From positions 1 through 47,411 of the IMG/VR virus record IMGVR_UViG_3300046471_000230: DNA of 47,411 nucleotides. One strand, written 5' to 3'. This stretch comes from a virus. Position 1 is the first letter of the stretch; each line of letters opens with the position of its first letter. The translations under genes and the position numbers were made by a program. Below, one piece after another: positions 7,600 to 18,566 of this stretch. The notes beneath the pieces were generated by a model. It searched no databases, was not told the origin of the DNA, and worked only from the letters and a program-made list of their open reading frames with translations.

Positions 7600-8631
7600 C
7601 TACCTCGTCGGCGTTACAATTTTACCACGGCGCAAGTAGTGCCGGCGGGTGGTCTTGACGCTGTCATGGCCCAGCAAATCGCTCGCCGCCTGCTCGCCGC
7701 GCTGGTCCGAAGTGTCGTCAGCGGCCTTCGCTCGGAGGTCGTAGAACCAGAATGCCTTGATGCTTTCGGTCAACTCTGGATGCTTCTTTGCAGCCAAGTC
7801 TTTTGCCATGGAGAAATGATCGCGCAGCACCTGCTTGGTCAGTGGCATGCCGTCGCGGTTCATCAGCAGTTGCGCATGCTCGGTTCGGTGCTGCTCCTTG
7901 CGCGCCAGGATGCGCTCTACCAGCGCCGCCAGCTCGCCGGTGACCGCGATGCGCAGCTTCTTGCCGGTCTTGCCCTGGTCGACCACCAGCACCCCGTCGA
8001 CGATATCGTCAGCGCGCGTCTTGAGCGCATCGCCGGGCCGCTGGCCGGTGAGGTAGGCGAAGTCCAGCGCCTCCTGTAATTGAAGGCTGCCGTGCGCGCG
8101 CACCGCGTCGAATACCGCGTCGGTGATGTATACCTCGCGCTTGGCCAGGGCGTGGCCCATGATCCCGGTGCACGGGTTTTCGAGATCCGTATAGCCCCAC
8201 CCGCGCGCATGGTTCCACAGCGTCGAGAACAGGCGTTTGCACCGGTTCGCCGTCGTCGGCTTGTCGTCGTGGTCCTGCAGGAAATTCTTGATGTGCATCG
8301 GGCGAATCTGGTTCAGAGGCGCCGCGGCGAACGACTTGTCGAGGTGCTTCATGTCGGATCTGTGCGTGGCGATCGTGCTTTTCGAAAGCGTCTCCAGCAC
8401 GTCTTTTCGGTATCGCGCCATCACGTCACCGAACGTCGGATCGTCGGTTTTGGTGGGGGCCTCGTACAACTCAGTGTATTTGCGCAGCGCGAGCAGGTAA
8501 TCGTCGCCAAGCGGGATTTCCTTGCGCGGCTTCTCGCCGGTGTCCAGGTAGTAAAAAATCCTGCCGCTGCGCTGTGTGCGCTTGCGCATGTGCGGCGGCA
8601 GGTTCGAGTTCTTGCTTGGCTTCCTACCCAC
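7600..8631 (-). CDS. int: Phage tyrosine integrase
   Basis: 343 residues from a GTG start at 8631 preceded by GGGAG; this start gives the usual GRKPSKNSNLPP opening. The SAM-like arm/core-binding domain covers about residues 65-145 and the catalytic domain 165-343. Catalytic residues are Arg198 (TGQRPGDA), Lys221 or Lys224, Arg300 in YDLR, His322 (LLGHDS) and Tyr332. The box II histidine is replaced by Tyr297. The start overlaps the upstream DUF4224 gene by 8 nt. A 7-bp hairpin at 7567-7586 follows the stop codon. It catalyses prophage integration and excision; the neighbouring tRNA is the obvious candidate site but the orientation is odd. Confidence 0.92.
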   Translation of the reverse strand: MGRKPSKNSNLPPHMRKRTQRSGRIFYYLDTGEKPRKEIPLGDDYLLALRKYTELYEAPTKTDDPTFGDVMARYRKDVLETLSKSTIATHRSDMKHLDKSFAAAPLNQIRPMHIKNFLQDHDDKPTTANRCKRLFSTLWNHARGWGYTDLENPCTGIMGHALAKREVYITDAVFDAVRAHGSLQLQEALDFAYLTGQRPGDALKTRADDIVDGVLVVDQGKTGKKLRIAVTGELAALVERILARKEQHRTEHAQLLMNRDGMPLTKQVLRDHFSMAKDLAAKKHPELTESIKAFWFYDLRAKAADDTSDQRGEQAASDLLGHDSVKTTRRHYLRRGKIVTPTR

Positions 8632-8830
8632 GTCTTGGCATCTCCCATACCTTTTCCGGTGCCGGGGGCGGCACCTTGCTTCCTTCAATGACAGAGGTGG
8701 CCACCACCGGCTTGCCTACTGCATTGACGCGGAATGGCACGCCCATGCGGCGCAGCGCCTCGATCTGCTTGGACTTCACTTTTCGGCCGGTCAGTTCGGC
8801 TAGCTCGTCGGCATTGAGAAACATGCTCAT
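8624..8830 (-). CDS. DUF4224 protein, excisionase-like
   Basis: 68 residues with AGGAG upstream of the ATG. The sequence MFLNADELAELTGRK followed by IEALRRMGVPFRVNA is the signature of DUF4224, small winged-helix proteins nearly always encoded directly before phage integrases and thought to act as excisionase or integrase regulators. Its end overlaps the GTG of the integrase, and its ATG overlaps the stop of the preceding gene (ATGA), so the three are translationally coupled. Confidence 0.85.
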   Translation of the reverse strand: MSMFLNADELAELTGRKVKSKQIEALRRMGVPFRVNAVGKPVVATSVIEGSKVPPPAPEKVWEMPRRG

Positions 8831-9261
8831 GACTGCTCCTGTGGTTGTGGGGCGGCTGAAAACTCCCTGATGCGCGCTGCCGCTGCCTTGCGGGCATATT
8901 CGTGCCCCTCGGCATAGTGGTCAAAGTCGCTGCGCTTCCCAAAGCATCCGCGATCGTGCGCTGGCGCCATGCCTTCAATCTCTGATGCCAATGCATCCAG
9001 CCGCGCGCTGTCCTCATCCTGCGCCTCGGTGGGGGCTGGCTGGGCCTTGAGGGCAGCGCGGCGATTCCAGAGTAGCGCGATGTCGAGCAAGTAGCCGGGT
9101 TGTGCCGGGAACATCAGCGCGTGGTCGTCGGCATCGAACACGCATTCCTCGTCGTGGTCAGCGTACAGCCGGTGCCAGTCGCGGTTGCTCTCGATGCGCG
9201 CGGCGCCGCCGCAGAATGGACATGGCAGAAGCTCTGCTGCGCCCGGTGCTTTGTCGCTCAT
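8827..9261 (-). CDS. Lar-like (restriction alleviation) zinc-ribbon protein
   Basis: 144 residues from ATG 9261 behind AAGGAG. Residues 9-60 (LLPCPFCGGAARIES and later ALLWNRRA) match the Lar/restriction-alleviation family, in which CPxCG and the terminal WNRR motif are conserved. The C-terminal half adds an unrelated region (DHYAEGHEYARKAA) often seen in phage accessory proteins. In lambdoid phages Lar stimulates host methylation to blunt type I restriction; that activity is not proven for this long form. Confidence 0.7.
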   Translation of the reverse strand: MSDKAPGAAELLPCPFCGGAARIESNRDWHRLYADHDEECVFDADDHALMFPAQPGYLLDIALLWNRRAALKAQPAPTEAQDEDSARLDALASEIEGMAPAHDRGCFGKRSDFDHYAEGHEYARKAAAARIREFSAAPQPQEQS

Positions 9262-9605
9262 GGCTTTGCTCCTTTGGTGGCGGCGATATACGATTTCGCC
9301 CGGTGATAGCTGCATTGGAACCCAGGCTTGACTGACTGTCCGTCGGGTTTGCATTCAGAACACGCGTGGTCGAATTGCAGGTGAAAGTCGATGTAGCCGT
9401 GCATGCGTACCAGTTGCTCGGCAAATTCAAGCGCCACCCGCTCCACGTCCACTGTCGCGCGCGGCGTGGCAGCCTGGTACCCGGCGCAGAAAGCATCCTG
9501 CGCCTCCTTGTACTGGTGCCCGGATCCATGCTCGGCAAACCATGCGAAGAACGCTGCGCGCATCGGCTCGTCGCTTGCCTGCGCTGGGGGAATAATATTT
9601 GACAT
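9258..9605 (-). CDS. Phage hypothetical protein
   Basis: 115 residues from ATG 9605, with AAGGG upstream. The N-terminal half has RAAFFAWFAEHG and AQDAFCAGYQAA, a pattern shared by many small accessory proteins of temperate phages that co-occur with Lar and Ead genes. The tail carries several Cys/His residues (CSECKPD, CSYH). It overlaps the next gene by ATGA. Function unknown. Confidence 0.6.
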   Translation of the reverse strand: MSNIIPPAQASDEPMRAAFFAWFAEHGSGHQYKEAQDAFCAGYQAATPRATVDVERVALEFAEQLVRMHGYIDFHLQFDHACSECKPDGQSVKPGFQCSYHRAKSYIAATKGAKP

Positions 9606-9615
9606 GGATTTCCCT

Positions 9616-9984
9616 TTAAAGGTTGTTTTTGCCGCGCACGTCGACAAAGCCGACTTTTTCGGAGCGGCGCTTGACCATTGCGCTCAGCCGCTTTTCCTCT
9701 TTCTGCAACACCTCAATGCGGTCGAGCAGTTCGCGCACCTTGCGGTTCGCTTCGGCATAGTGCTGCCATGCGCGTTGGATGCTGGCGGCGTTGTTGAGCA
9801 AGAAGCTGAACGCGTCGAGCGTGGCGCCGCAGCGAGCGCAGTACACGGCCCGGTCGTGCTGGTCAAGCCGGATCGCTTCGTGGTTGCACGAGTACGGCAG
9901 CGCAGGGTTGCGCGGCGCGATCTGCATCAGGTTCTCGGGCAATTCAGCCGATGGAAATGCGTGGACATTCGTTTCGTCGCTCAC
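9616..9984 (-). CDS. Phage hypothetical protein with zinc-ribbon-like motif and coiled coil
   Basis: 122 residues. CNHEAIRLDQHDRAVYCARCG at about 33-53 supplies C-x-H and C-x2-C metal ligands. Residues 80-110 are a strongly charged helix (RKVRELLDRIEVLQKEEKRL) typical of a coiled coil. It overlaps the upstream Ead-like gene by ATGA and belongs to the leftward accessory operon. Function unknown. Confidence 0.6.
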   Translation of the reverse strand: MSDETNVHAFPSAELPENLMQIAPRNPALPYSCNHEAIRLDQHDRAVYCARCGATLDAFSFLLNNAASIQRAWQHYAEANRKVRELLDRIEVLQKEEKRLSAMVKRRSEKVGFVDVRGKNNL

Positions 9985-11300
9985 TTCGCCACCCCGCCAT
10001 CGTTGTCTGCCAGCGCCCCGGATGGGGTGACGGGCTGTTGATCGGCGTCCGGTAACTCGCAGTGAACCGGTGTCGGATCGTTCGGGAAGTCATCGTGGCT
10101 CAGCACGTAGGGCTTTACGTTGGTGACGGTCCAGAACGTCGGGCGCGCGTGCTTGTTGATCCATCCCGCCAACAGATCGTTTAATTCCTGCTCGGCGCTT
10201 TTGTCCACGTCAGGGTAGCCATCGGCATGCTCACCAACCAGATCGTCGGCACGCTCACCCATCATGGTCACAATGTCGTCAGCGTCGATTAACTGGCTCG
10301 GTTCTGGCTTGACGGCCTCGCCCACCCAAACGGTGTCACCGGGCTTCAGTTCTTCATTGTGGTCGAACAACTCGCCAATTGACTGGGCATTGAAATCCTC
10401 TTGATCTGCCGACCAGCATTCAATCGGGGCTTCGTCCGGCCCCTCGCTCTGTACCTGCGGCAGTGGGGCTGCGGCAAAATTGGGCGTTGCGTCGTAGACC
10501 AGCAGCGTGACGCCGTGTTTGTCGTGCGCATCGTCCATGACCTCGCTGACCACGCCGAAATAACGGTGGTGCGCATCGTGGTCGCCGGTGCTGACGTCCA
10601 TCGACACCGACATGCCGGTGATCCAGTCGCGCAGTTCTTCCGGCATACGTTCGCCAGCCGTAAGCGACTGTTGCGCGGTGGGAGCGGCAAGGACTCTGAC
10701 CTGAGCGAACAACTGCTGTTGCAGGCGCATCATCAGCGCATGGTCCACGGGGTCGTGCCGCTTGCCGAACTCGTACGCAGCCTTGCGGAAGTCCGACACC
10801 AGTTCGCGCATGATGTCCATGTTGGCTTCACCCACTGGAGCGCCAGGTGCGGTGCTGTCGGCCAATTGGGCGGCGTCCTCGTCGGCGTTCTCGAAGCAGC
10901 TTTCAAGGATGCTGATCAATTCATAGTCGGTGACCAGCATCATTTCCGGCTGATCTGCTGGGCTGTCGCGGTCGGGAATTTCGCATACAGCCAGCACTAC
11001 CTGCCGCATGAATTCCTTGCGGTCGATAGCCGCGCTGGTCTGCGCCTGACCCTCGGTGGCGCGGATTTTGGCGATGAGGGCGAGGACCGTTTCGGGGTTA
11101 GCTGCCGCGATATAGTCTGCGTTAAATTCAGCGTGCAAGCGCACTACGGGATGGCAAACTACGTCGTCAAACGCTGCCGGCCCCACCAAATAAAGGTCAC
11201 TGTCCTCATCGTCACCAGCAATCCATGGCCCTGGCGTTGCTGCGCGTGCCAGCGCTTCCAGCTTGTCGAGGTCGAGTGCATCCGTGTGTTTGTCGCTCAT
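9981..11300 (-). CDS. Ead/Ea22-like phage protein
   Basis: 439 residues. The opening LDKLEALARAATPGPW, then DYIAAANPETVLALIAKI near residues 62-79, is the signature of the Ead/Ea22-like family of accessory proteins from lambdoid phages. The rest is a mosaic of acidic segments, including a KPGDTVWVGEA stretch. The family is non-essential and its biochemical function is unknown. The gene sits between overlapping neighbours on both sides (ATGA junctions). Confidence 0.75.
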   Translation of the reverse strand: MSDKHTDALDLDKLEALARAATPGPWIAGDDEDSDLYLVGPAAFDDVVCHPVVRLHAEFNADYIAAANPETVLALIAKIRATEGQAQTSAAIDRKEFMRQVVLAVCEIPDRDSPADQPEMMLVTDYELISILESCFENADEDAAQLADSTAPGAPVGEANMDIMRELVSDFRKAAYEFGKRHDPVDHALMMRLQQQLFAQVRVLAAPTAQQSLTAGERMPEELRDWITGMSVSMDVSTGDHDAHHRYFGVVSEVMDDAHDKHGVTLLVYDATPNFAAAPLPQVQSEGPDEAPIECWSADQEDFNAQSIGELFDHNEELKPGDTVWVGEAVKPEPSQLIDADDIVTMMGERADDLVGEHADGYPDVDKSAEQELNDLLAGWINKHARPTFWTVTNVKPYVLSHDDFPNDPTPVHCELPDADQQPVTPSGALADNDGGVAK

Positions 11301-11500
11301 GGTGTTTCCTTCGATTCGGAATTGTTCAGCTTTTCGGCCGCAGCATTTGCTTTGGCCTCGTCGTAGAAGCGCTTGCGGTCAGTTCCGCTTGGTGACATAA
11401 CAAAGCGCTGGCTGCCGTACACGCCAGGGTGATGCGTCCAAATGCACCAATACGTACGGCCCGCATAGGCCTGATGGCCGGACACGTTCCACTTAGCCAT
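11297..11500 (-). CDS. Small phage hypothetical protein
   Basis: 67 residues, overlapping the Ead-like gene by 4 nt and the upstream zinc-knuckle gene by 8 nt. It is rich in Trp and Tyr in its first half (GRTYWCIWTHHPG) and helical and charged in its second (DEAKANAAAEKLNN). No family is recognised; operon position supports it as real. Confidence 0.55.
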   Translation of the reverse strand: MAKWNVSGHQAYAGRTYWCIWTHHPGVYGSQRFVMSPSGTDRKRFYDEAKANAAAEKLNNSESKETP

Positions 11501-12434
11501 TGCCCGCCTCGCTTCCTTCCTGCTGGGTCGATTTCAGGCCACGGATTGTTGCCGCGTCCTGCTCGGCCTGCGCTTTCCGTTCGATGTAGTCGCTACGGAA
11601 GGAATCACTGTTCGTCGCGTCGTCAATTTCGTCCTTCGCCATGCCGGCCGCAAAATCGCAGGCCTTTGCCGCCTCTTCCAGAGCATCGTTGCGCACAGCA
11701 TCCGGCGCTATTGGAGCAACCGGCGCAGATGACGCGCGGCTGTCGCGGGCCGCACGGAGCTCCGCGACTGCCTTGAGGATTTCTGCTGCCGTCGCGTCGA
11801 AGTCGCCGTGCTCGCGCAGAGTGCTTGCGCAGTCCGTCAGGTCGTTGCAATGCGCAGTTACGGCAACTACCAGCGCATCATCTGCAATTGATCCCTGCTG
11901 CGCAGCGACGGTAGGCTGGGTGGCGGCGAGGGAGGCGCGCAGAGCGTTGCGATCCTTGTTGGCCGACTCGTAGCGCTCCCAGCCTTGATCGCCCCGCAAC
12001 CGTTCCCCGGCGTACTGACGGTGCATGTACTCGATATATTCGAGCTGGGACATCACTTTACCGCTGACCGTGTAGGTAGGCTGGCTGTCGAGCGCTTCAG
12101 CAGCGCGAGATTTGACTTTGGCGGCAACGGCGTTGGCAAGCGCGAAGTCCCAGTTATCGCCGTCCCAGCCGTCGCCCGGTTTGATCGTTTCGCGAATCGC
12201 GTCGACCTGCGCCATCGTCAGCAACTCGCTCGACTCGGAGGGCGCATCAGCAGCGCGGGCCGATACAGCGATATGGCAAAGTCGCATCAATTCGCGGTCC
12301 TGCGGCGTGTTTAAGCCCTGCGTTGACCAGCACTCATCGCTCCGATGTCCAGCTTTATTACAGCCAAGGCACCAACGTTCTTCCGCTACCGCCTCGCCAC
12401 GAACAGCGGGGCCCTGGTCTTTGTCTTGGTTCAT
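11493..12434 (-). CDS. Phage hypothetical protein with CCHC zinc knuckle
   Basis: 313 residues, first gene of the leftward accessory operon, with GGAG about 6 nt before ATG. Residues 22-35 read CLGCNKAGHRSDEC, an exact C-x2-C-x4-H-x4-C zinc knuckle of the kind that binds single-stranded nucleic acid. The rest is Ala-rich and helical, including a MSQLEYIEYMHRQYAG segment. Similar N-termini occur in accessory proteins of other temperate phages, as far as I recall. Transcription probably starts at the promoter within the 12463-12548 repeat region. Its function is unknown. Confidence 0.6.
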   Translation of the reverse strand: MNQDKDQGPAVRGEAVAEERWCLGCNKAGHRSDECWSTQGLNTPQDRELMRLCHIAVSARAADAPSESSELLTMAQVDAIRETIKPGDGWDGDNWDFALANAVAAKVKSRAAEALDSQPTYTVSGKVMSQLEYIEYMHRQYAGERLRGDQGWERYESANKDRNALRASLAATQPTVAAQQGSIADDALVVAVTAHCNDLTDCASTLREHGDFDATAAEILKAVAELRAARDSRASSAPVAPIAPDAVRNDALEEAAKACDFAAGMAKDEIDDATNSDSFRSDYIERKAQAEQDAATIRGLKSTQQEGSEAGNG

Positions 12435-12453
12435 GTTTTTCTCCGTTATTTGA

Positions 12454-12548
12454 TAGGTCTAGTGTAGTGCGCAATCAAATCTACAGCAAGCACTTTCTGT
12501 AGTGCGCAATCAAAATAATTTGAAGCCGCGTTTGTAGTGCGCTATCAT
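12454..12548. promoter_or_regulatory. Divergent promoters with three operator-like repeats, 35-bp spacing
   Basis: TGTAGTGCGCAATCA occurs at 12463-12477 and 12498-12512, and a one-mismatch copy at 12533-12547; the start-to-start spacing is exactly 35 bp twice. Rightward: TTGAAG (12520-12525), 17 bp, TATCAT (12543-12548), with copy 3 covering the -10 box. Leftward: TTGATT (complement of 12473-12478), 17 bp, TATCAA (about 12450-12455), with copy 1 covering the -35 box. The likely ligand is the ribbon-helix-helix protein encoded at 12555. Confidence 0.7.
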
Positions 12549-12554
12549 TGCAGC

Positions 12555-12737
12555 ATGAAAAATCCAACACGCCCACCAAGCGACCGGGGCCAAGGTCGCA
12601 AAGCAATCTCCGAGAGCGAGGAAACGGTGACCGTCTCCCTGCGCATGACGCCCCCACTGCGCGACAAGCTAAAGGCGCTCGGCGGCGCCGCATGGGTTCG
12701 TGAGCGCATCAAGCTGGCGAAGCCGCCGAAGCCTTAG
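12555..12737 (+). CDS. Ribbon-helix-helix-type regulator, apparently leaderless
   Basis: 60 residues. A basic N-terminus (DRGQGRKAIS) is followed by ETVTVSLRMTPPLRDKLKAL and GGAAWVRERI, the strand-helix-helix pattern of ribbon-helix-helix repressors. The predicted transcription start from the promoter at 12520-12548 falls at about the ATG itself and no Shine-Dalgarno is present, so the message may be leaderless. Its end overlaps the end of a converging gene by 29 nt. Autorepression through the three 35-bp repeats is the simplest model. Confidence 0.7.
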   Translation: MKNPTRPPSDRGQGRKAISESEETVTVSLRMTPPLRDKLKALGGAAWVRERIKLAKPPKP

Positions 12738-13209
12738 CCACCTCTGCCCGCACGTTCGTCGTGTTGATCTTGTGGCGTATCCGGCGCAGCACTTCGTTGG
12801 CCGCCCGGTCGATGTCGATGGCGCGCACGTTCTCCAGCTGCGCTTCGTGACAAGTGAACGCCTCGTTCATCGTCATCAGTTCGGCGCCGGTGAACCCGAA
12901 GCTGCCGAACTTGTGATACCGCACGCCCACCTGGCACAGCGCGTCACGCGCCGCAATCGTCTGCTCGCGGAACTCGTTGCCGATCCCCTGCTCGCACATC
13001 ACGTTGGCCATGTTGATCGCGCCCACCAGGCGGTCCCAGTCGTCGCGCGTGCCCCGGCCCTGCACCATTGCTGCCAGCGCCGCGTGGTTCTTGATGTGCA
13101 GCTCCTGCAGGTGCTGCGCGTGCGTGCTGCCCATGCCGCCGAAGATCTCCGCAATCGGGTTGGTGGCCACCTGGCGTGGGCGATATTTCTTGTTGCGGGG
13201 CCGTTTCAT
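12709..13209 (-). CDS. Phage hypothetical protein
   Basis: 166 residues. A basic N-terminus (MKRPRNKKYRPRQ) leads into a mainly helical body (NPIAEIFGGM, HLQELHIKNHAALAAMVQG). The family, seen in early regions of Burkholderiales phages as I recall, has no known function. It overlaps the upstream wHTH gene by ATGA, and it is the last gene of the recombination operon that starts near 16.5 kb. Confidence 0.6.
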   Translation of the reverse strand: MKRPRNKKYRPRQVATNPIAEIFGGMGSTHAQHLQELHIKNHAALAAMVQGRGTRDDWDRLVGAINMANVMCEQGIGNEFREQTIAARDALCQVGVRYHKFGSFGFTGAELMTMNEAFTCHEAQLENVRAIDIDRAANEVLRRIRHKINTTNVRAEVAKASAASPA

Positions 13210-17568: not shown

Positions 17569-18249
17569 TTACAAACGCTCGCTCTCCCGCCGAACAACTC
17601 TTCCAATGACCAGGCAAGCCTCCCCTCTGCACACCTTGCGGCCATGTTTCCTCTTATCCAGATTATCGGACGTGAGCCACCAGTCCCCGGCGTCCCGCTC
17701 CATGCGCTTTACGACGGCATCGCCCTCGTAATTAATCGCAAAAACTACGCCATCAACAGGTTTCTTATCGGCTGTATTGATTATTACAACATCATCTTCG
17801 TAAAGTGTCGGTTCCATGCTCTCGCCCCTAACGCGAATCACATATAACTTCTCGGGGTCGAAATTATGGCGTTTGATCCAGTCAGCTGGTACAGCAAGGG
17901 TGGCTCCATCATAAAATTCCGGCTCAGTCTCAAACTCATTAAACCCACCAGTAAGTTTCAATTTCACTTTCCGAATATGAACCCATCGCGGGTCCTCGTC
18001 ATCGACGACCTCAACCGAGCGCAACACAAAGCCTTTCAGCCCCTTTGCCTGCTCATCCGACATGAAGAACACGGCAACAGGCACCTCTAAGGCCTCGGCC
18101 AGCTTGTTCAAAGTGGCATCACTGTAGCCCTGTACGTCGCGCTCCAGGCGCGACAAGTTACCAACATCACTCTCGATCTGAGCGGCGAGCTGGTTGAGGG
18201 TCAGGCCCTTTTCTTTGCGTAATTTGCGAATTGTTGTGCCAATAGTCAT
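17569..18249 (-). CDS. S24-family phage repressor (CI-like)
   Basis: 226 residues. The helix-turn-helix domain is residues 1-60 (LTLNQLAAQIESDVGNLSRLE). The C-terminal LexA/S24 domain has the catalytic pair Ser144 (GESMEPTL) and Lys181 (GDAVVKRM). No Ala-Gly or Cys-Gly dipeptide is visible in the linker (about residues 80-118), where the self-cleavage site normally lies. It would maintain lysogeny by binding operators at 18279-18330 and 16613-16633. It is divergent from the Cro-like gene. Confidence 0.88.
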   Translation of the reverse strand: MTIGTTIRKLRKEKGLTLNQLAAQIESDVGNLSRLERDVQGYSDATLNKLAEALEVPVAVFFMSDEQAKGLKGFVLRSVEVVDDEDPRWVHIRKVKLKLTGGFNEFETEPEFYDGATLAVPADWIKRHNFDPEKLYVIRVRGESMEPTLYEDDVVIINTADKKPVDGVVFAINYEGDAVVKRMERDAGDWWLTSDNLDKRKHGRKVCRGEACLVIGRVVRRESERL

Positions 18250-18278: not shown

Positions 18279-18330
18279 ACGCAAAGCGTGTTGCGCAAAC
18301 TTTGAACCGGATGTAATATGCGTACTACGC
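18279..18330 (+). promoter_or_regulatory. pR-like promoter and operators between repressor and Cro-like genes
   Basis: TTGCGC (18291-18296), 17 bp, TAATAT (18314-18319) form the rightward promoter. Operator-like inverted repeats lie at 18279-18289 (ACGC-AAA-GCGT) and 18320-18330 (GCGTA-C-TACGC). CGCAAACTTT is directly repeated at 18294-18303 and 18328-18337. The second operator overlaps the predicted transcription start. The shared ATATGCGTA links it to the pL-like site at 16.6 kb. Confidence 0.65.
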
Positions 18331-18350
18331 AAACTTTTCTCTGGCACATC

Positions 18351-18566
18351 ATGAAATCTCCTCTTCGCCGCGCACGTGAGACAGCAGGGCAAACCATCGT
18401 CGAGGTCGGCCGCGCAGTCGGCGTCGACGCTGGGAATCTTTCGCGCATTGAAAACAGCAAGCAGAAGGCATCAACCGAACTTGCCGAGAAGTTGGCAAAG
18501 CATTTCGGTGGACTGATAACCGAACTTGAAATTTTGTACCCGGAGCGATCCGAAGCAACCACGTAA
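18351..18566 (+). CDS. Cro-like helix-turn-helix protein
   Basis: 71 residues from ATG 18351; an in-frame ATG at 18318 lies within the -10 box of the predicted promoter and would precede the transcript. The helix-turn-helix is about residues 10-45 (AGQTIVEVGRAVGVDAGNLSRIE). It is the first rightward early gene, divergent from the repressor, the classic Cro position. No good Shine-Dalgarno is seen. Confidence 0.75.
   Translation: MKSPLRRARETAGQTIVEVGRAVGVDAGNLSRIENSKQKASTELAEKLAKHFGGLITELEILYPERSEATT

Follow-up and report, generated by a model that had tools for sequence, protein, structure and literature searches.

The virus record IMGVR_UViG_3300046471_000230 in IMG/VR, analysed here at its full length of 47,411 bases (the window), raises the question of what is controlled by a 60-aa protein whose gene is separated by three short repeats from a divergent operon, and of how the small gene itself is expressed. 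The phage has a CI-like repressor gene and a Cro-like gene at a distance from this locus, and family scans showed that the window also encodes ERF and YqaJ recombination genes, an excisionase and an integrase (Table 1). The initial annotation had described the divergent operon as one of accessory genes, a description that is incomplete, as the overlapping genes continue to those for the excisionase and the integrase.

Table 1. Features of the locus and related genes of the window (position 1 is the first base of the window).
Feature	Position	Strand	Basis or remark
Divergent operon	7600-12434	-	ORF list, family scans; genes overlapping or nearly touching
Operon: integrase, start uncertain	7600-8688	-	
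Operon: excisionase, DUF4224	8624-8830	-	
Operon: Lar-like restriction alleviation protein	8827-9261	-	
Operon: hypothetical protein	9258-9605	-	
Operon: hypothetical protein	9616-9984	-	
Operon: weak Ead/Ea22-like N-terminus	9981-11300	-	
Operon: 67-aa ORF	11297-11500	-	
Operon: hypothetical protein	11493-12434	-	
Divergent promoter: TTGATT (-35, 12473-12478), 17 nt, TATCAA (-10, 12450-12455)	12450-12478	-	predicted
Repeat 1 (putative operator O1)	12463-12477	+	over most of divergent -35 box
Repeat 2 (putative operator O2)	12498-12512	+	between both promoters, overlaps the boxes of neither
Repeat 3 (putative operator O3), one base different	12533-12547	+	over most of repressor -10 box
Promoter of 60-aa gene: TTGAAG (12520-12525), 17 nt, TATCAT (12543-12548)	12520-12548	+	predicted
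Putative RHH-like repressor gene, 60 aa	12555-12737	+	ORF list; relatives; two confident helices
Weak terminator-like hairpin within repressor gene	12674-12689	-	on the strand converging on the repressor gene
Convergent gene, recombination-side operon (ERF, YqaJ)	12709-13209	-	3' end overlaps last 29 bp of repressor gene
CI-like repressor gene	17569-18249	-	family scans
Cro-like gene	18318-18566	+	family scans

The three copies of the 15-bp repeat, TGTAGTGCGC[A/T]ATCA, sit between the 60-aa gene and the divergent operon at a spacing of 35 + 35 bp. The sequence thus confirms the exact 35-bp periodicity that had been reported for them, with the single mismatch confined to the third copy. When up to three mismatches were allowed, the repeat pattern matched seven times in the whole window against 2.31 matches expected from shuffles, and each of the remaining four matches had exactly three mismatches, so that no close copy exists in the window beyond the three repeats. 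Their three-in-step identity score was 29/30, compared with a mean of 17.05 and a maximum of 19 across 60 copies of the region generated by a Markov model. The placement of the repeats over predicted promoter boxes was also borne out: repeat 3 covers five of the six bases of the gene's own −10 box, and repeat 1 covers five of six in the divergent −35 box. A scan of IMG/VR for paired GTAGTGCGC with 18–34 bases between the copies returned 23 stretches, mostly tandem repeats and apparent coding stretches by eye, and inspection of the printed contexts, also by eye, revealed no RHH-like operator region among them; the repeat sequence of the window therefore seems private to it.

The predicted promoter of the 60-aa gene, TTGAAG-17-TATCAT, is the only σ70-like match between 12300 and 12800. 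Its −10 box ends 6 nt before the ATG at 12555, and the Shine-Dalgarno match of the gene never exceeds 3 nt. This is the arrangement by which leaderless genes are recognized, namely a −10 box about 6–7 nt ahead of the start codon without a Shine-Dalgarno sequence, and the transcript is predicted to start at or adjoining the A of this ATG. On the other strand, TTGATT-17-TATCAA is the top-scoring leftward promoter within 150 nt before the ATG. Were leftward transcription to begin 6–7 nt beyond this promoter, its start would lie at or within the divergent gene's CGGAG (12445–12441), which would give a leader of only ~10 nt and is a loose end in the assignment.

To place the locus among its relatives, we searched IMG/VR, genome_contigs, and genomes related to Paraburkholderia solitsugae at the level of genus, family or order. 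The genome searches at these three levels gave matches in 7 of 399, 4 of 144, 5 of 398, 8 of 398, 1 of 3, 6 of 144, 2 of 58 and 9 of 399 genomes. The last of these, the A6 search of order genomes, added new loci in G118 and G370 and a second place in G074; it is no independent test, because its remaining places repeat known loci and the upstream DNA of the new ones was left out. INPHARED contained no tblastn match to the 60-aa protein (E ≤ 1) or to the proteins of L002, L071, L072 and L076 (E ≤ 0.01), and no blastn match to positions 12160–12760. Scans of IMG/VR with the L071, L072 and L076 proteins found no relative, and among plasmids the L002 protein had no match and the 60-aa protein a single weak one. 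The Pseudomonas juntendi plasmid p2463-1 carries a distantly matching sequence (37% identity to the repressor, E 0.1; L120:2297-2644), which is followed by a gene annotated as encoding a ParA family protein, as is the case with RHH partition proteins.

The homologues were of two sorts, operon-embedded or domain-fused on the one hand and, on the other, stand-alone behind a repeat-bearing intergenic region. In four loci of order-level genomes (L030, L033, L034 and L037), the same N-terminal domain precedes an S24 peptidase domain, the S24 match in L037 being just under the Pfam cut-off. These S24-linked forms appear to resemble repressors of the LexA/CI/UmuD type, with an RHH-like domain in place of the helix-turn-helix. 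An integrase gene on the same strand is found no more than ~2 kb from operon-embedded relatives in G006 and G008. Rough ORF maps placed the nearest sizeable downstream ORF in convergent orientation in L038, L039, L041, L095 and L096 and in co-directional orientation in L097. The latter, which corresponds to the L072/L073 region, holds a stand-alone RHH-like gene, then the co-directional ORF, which resembles one for a GIY-YIG nuclease, and then a second RHH-like frame that lacks a start of its own. About 0.9 kb from the L007 repressor gene, a short ORF (L105, in G002) matches RHH_1 near the cut-off, and a similar-looking short ORF is present near the repressor gene in L094.

The stand-alone set, which was picked by eye, comprised 14 loci: the window, L001, L002, L003, L006, L007, L071, L072, L076, L077, L090, L091, L092 and L100. 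When the last 100 nt before each ATG were scored, the top-scoring promoter ended 6–8 nt before the ATG in ten of the 14, the window included, the exceptions being L006, L007, L092 and L100. As controls we used 233 other genes from ten of the stretches, with longest-ORF starts of which some are wrong; a top promoter 5–8 nt before the start, compared with the 6–8 nt applied to the RHH-like set, was found in 11 of them, and in only one of the 44 whose promoter score was comparable, that is, no lower than 6.9, the minimum in the ten leaderless-type loci. When operon-embedded and fused forms were included, 11 of the 39 distinct homologues for which 100 nt of upstream DNA was available had the promoter at 6–8 nt, one of which (L025) is a weak site inside an operon that looks like chance. 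No earlier start is available to L001 and L002, both of which carry a stop two codons ahead of the ATG. By contrast with the ten loci, a Shine-Dalgarno-like motif is present in L006, L007 and L100, the last of which also has ~28 nt following its −10 box, and in L092 the top promoter lies elsewhere and no clear promoter adjoins the ATG. Judged from these upstream regions, leaderless expression is not universal in the family. For the window, the leaderless start put forward in the initial annotation is a prediction, and one that the excess of such promoters among its relatives supports well.

We then compared the spacing of repeats in 13 loci falling into ten groups, the window included and L007 left out as nearly identical to L006, by asking for a direct repeat with at least nine of ten identical bases at 34 or 35 bp. 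Such repeats were present in six of the ten groups, at 35 bp in the window, L071 and L090/L091 and at 34 bp in L003, L072/L077 and L100. Shuffling in 1000 rounds, which kept base content only and took one member per group, gave on average 0.026 groups and never more than 1. This compares with the six observed, for which the better of two members was counted in the two-member groups; being related by descent, the groups are not wholly independent of one another. Four groups were without such a repeat (L001/L002, L092, L006 and L076): L092 has an 8/10 match at 34 bp, L001 has a 9/10 direct repeat at 24 bp, about one helical turn shorter, and L002, L006 and L076 have inverted repeats. The repeat sequences are unlike between groups (GTAGTGCGC, CGTANATACG, GTAGCTAC, TTGCACCCC, TTGCATTGCATT and TTGTGA), and the residues before the first helix also vary between groups, which is what would be expected of proteins that each read a site of their own. 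Since the spacing is equal and the repeats are unlike, copying alone is no explanation. The comparison thus supports the view of the repeats as local, putative operators.

Whether the 60-aa protein belongs to the ribbon-helix-helix (RHH) class was addressed by sequence, profile and structure searches. It matched 0 Pfam families and 0 NCBIfam models and had no convincing match in PHROGs; nine members of A3 gave weak Pfam hits, none of them to an RHH model, and a search of the window record with PF01402 gave no hit at E ≤ 10. Sequence searches of the PDB gave no match, and hhalign against four RHH_1-like proteins of G002 was not significant (Probab 0.12 and 0.29). Within this comparison, A2 and A4 aligned over a short stretch at the start of the first helix. 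An AF2 monomer model had high-confidence helices at residues 33–41 and 45–54 after an extended segment, with no strand and a pTM of 0.47; the RHH strand pairs only in the dimer. Foldseek returned a single unrelated PDB match (E 5.3) and, as its best viral match, an uncharacterized phage protein (E 0.051). The L076 protein carries a six-residue insertion between the helices, which would presumably give more usual RHH helix lengths. Of the earlier designation as an RHH regulator, the fold stands as plausible, although confirmation came from none of the sequence, profile and fold searches, and we regard the protein as plausibly an RHH-like small DNA-binding repressor.

Taken together, these observations make it probable, in our judgement, that the 60-aa protein is an autoregulated RHH-like repressor that is translated from a leaderless mRNA and acts through its own three repeats to shut down the two divergent promoters. 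A small dimeric protein would bind the repeats; occupation of repeat 3 would block the −10 box of its own promoter and so exert negative autoregulation, and occupation of repeat 1 would block the divergent −35 box and silence the operon that ends in the Lar-like, excisionase and integrase genes. Repeat 2 would serve as an additional neighbouring site with the same spacing. The repressor mRNA would begin at or adjoining the AUG and be translated without a leader. Because the repressor gene and the last gene of the recombination operon overlap at their 3′ ends, leftward transcription of that operon could also run antisense through the repressor gene and might lower repressor levels after induction. 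The initial annotation had called the arrangement a self-contained switch, wording that overstates the case: one repressor acting on both promoters amounts to autoregulation, and there is no sign of two-state switching.

The same sites would fit a dual regulator that represses the divergent promoter and activates its own, given that repeat 2 is clear of all the boxes, with its end 7 bp short of the repressor −35 box, a possible seat for an activator; the position of repeat 3, on nearly the whole −10 box of the promoter that would have to be activated, makes this unlikely. It is also conceivable that the repeats are operators of another protein, be it a host factor or one of the CI-like and Cro-like regulators, both of which this phage possesses. 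We consider this quite improbable, since repeats of differing sequence precede the RHH-like gene in unrelated loci, and CI or Cro operators in particular were rejected because the neighbourhood of those genes, at 17.5–18.6 kb, contains no copy of the repeat with up to three mismatches.

As to expression, the −10 box could lie so near the ATG by accident, with the transcript leadered or the gene silent. The promoter-like sites are predictions, and L006, L007 and L100 are leadered by sequence, yet an accident of this kind is hard to reconcile with the frequency of such promoters in the stand-alone loci relative to the control genes and with the stop codons just before the ATG in L001 and L002, and we hold it to be improbable. 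Many antitoxins are short RHH proteins, and the 60-aa protein might be thought the antitoxin half of a toxin-antitoxin pair. This we regard as very unlikely indeed, and the reading was dropped for want of a co-directional partner gene, the next gene being convergent and overlapping the end of the repressor gene. A role in integrase control was likewise considered as a trait of the whole family and set aside: integrase was not found in the IMG/VR records G003, G004 and G005, which carry stand-alone relatives and may be fragments, and in G002 the integrase match on the same contig is ~6.6 kb off, on the 3′ side of the repressor gene. The integrase link may be special to this phage.

Beyond autorepression in the window, we tentatively propose, as a reading somewhat less likely to hold than to fail, that the stand-alone loci are exchangeable secondary switches. 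They would represent an unnamed family of mini RHH-like repressors in Burkholderiaceae phages and prophages, with private operators and thus mutually ignoring one another, and with a kept geometry (paired operators 34–35 bp apart, 24 bp in L001, across two divergent promoters) and leaderless expression. Selection would then keep the geometry and not the sequence, and the window would be a three-operator version, one 35-bp unit longer, tied to anti-restriction and excision genes.

Parts of this proposal have precedents. In the immI region of P22 (mnt-arc-ant), small phage repressors act as a secondary immunity module by controlling an adjacent phage gene, according to passages of PMC8022706. 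In the window, a putative small repressor gene adjoins a phage operon that it is predicted to control, and the candidate sites lie in the shared intergenic region; the target in P22 is an antirepressor, whereas the operon here leads to anti-restriction, excisionase and integrase genes. Family scans of the 60-aa protein and of seven divergent-operon proteins did not name Mnt, Arc or Ant, and no relatedness to them in sequence emerged. In P22, the promoters on which Arc and Mnt act are divergent. The Omega repressor of pSM19035 is a small RHH repressor that reads arrays of short direct repeats, which are heptads packed side by side, in contrast to the 15-bp repeats 35 bp apart seen here. AmrZ, for which Arc and Mnt are named as the closest RHH relatives, represses its own gene through two promoter sites, as stated in sections of PMC3325190; it is a chromosomal protein of 108 aa with many targets, whereas the protein described here is a phage protein of 60 aa.

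Leaderless mRNAs of phage regulators are also known. The cI and cro mRNAs of PY54 were found to be leaderless by RACE, and λ cI is named as leaderless, in portions of PMC4488713. As predicted here, these are phage regulator mRNAs that start at the AUG, and they differ in encoding CI/Cro-type proteins of the primary immunity region, whereas the 60-aa protein would be a second regulator. In Burkholderia cenocepacia J2315, 72 transcription starts lie exactly at the start codon and 42 within 10 nt of it, and transcriptional regulators (28 coding sequences) are over-represented among the leaderless transcripts, as extracts of PMC4603805 report; that set consists of host genes during biofilm growth, unlike the phage gene considered here.

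A literature search, mostly at the level of search results, found no paper on an RHH-like leaderless phage repressor family of this kind. Leaderless phage repressors and self-repressing RHH proteins are thus known kinds, and what is new is an unnamed family with private operators and a shared geometry. If our reading is true, the window would show an added regulator heading an operon of anti-restriction, excisionase and integrase genes, and the family as a whole would lie outside the Pfam, NCBIfam and PHROGs scans made here. It would also provide a comparative case for leaderless expression being kept in small autorepressors. Finally, these loci would form a natural repressor-operator series, in which recognition changes while operator spacing and the leaderless start stay the same, and would make the rules by which small β-strand proteins read DNA directly testable.
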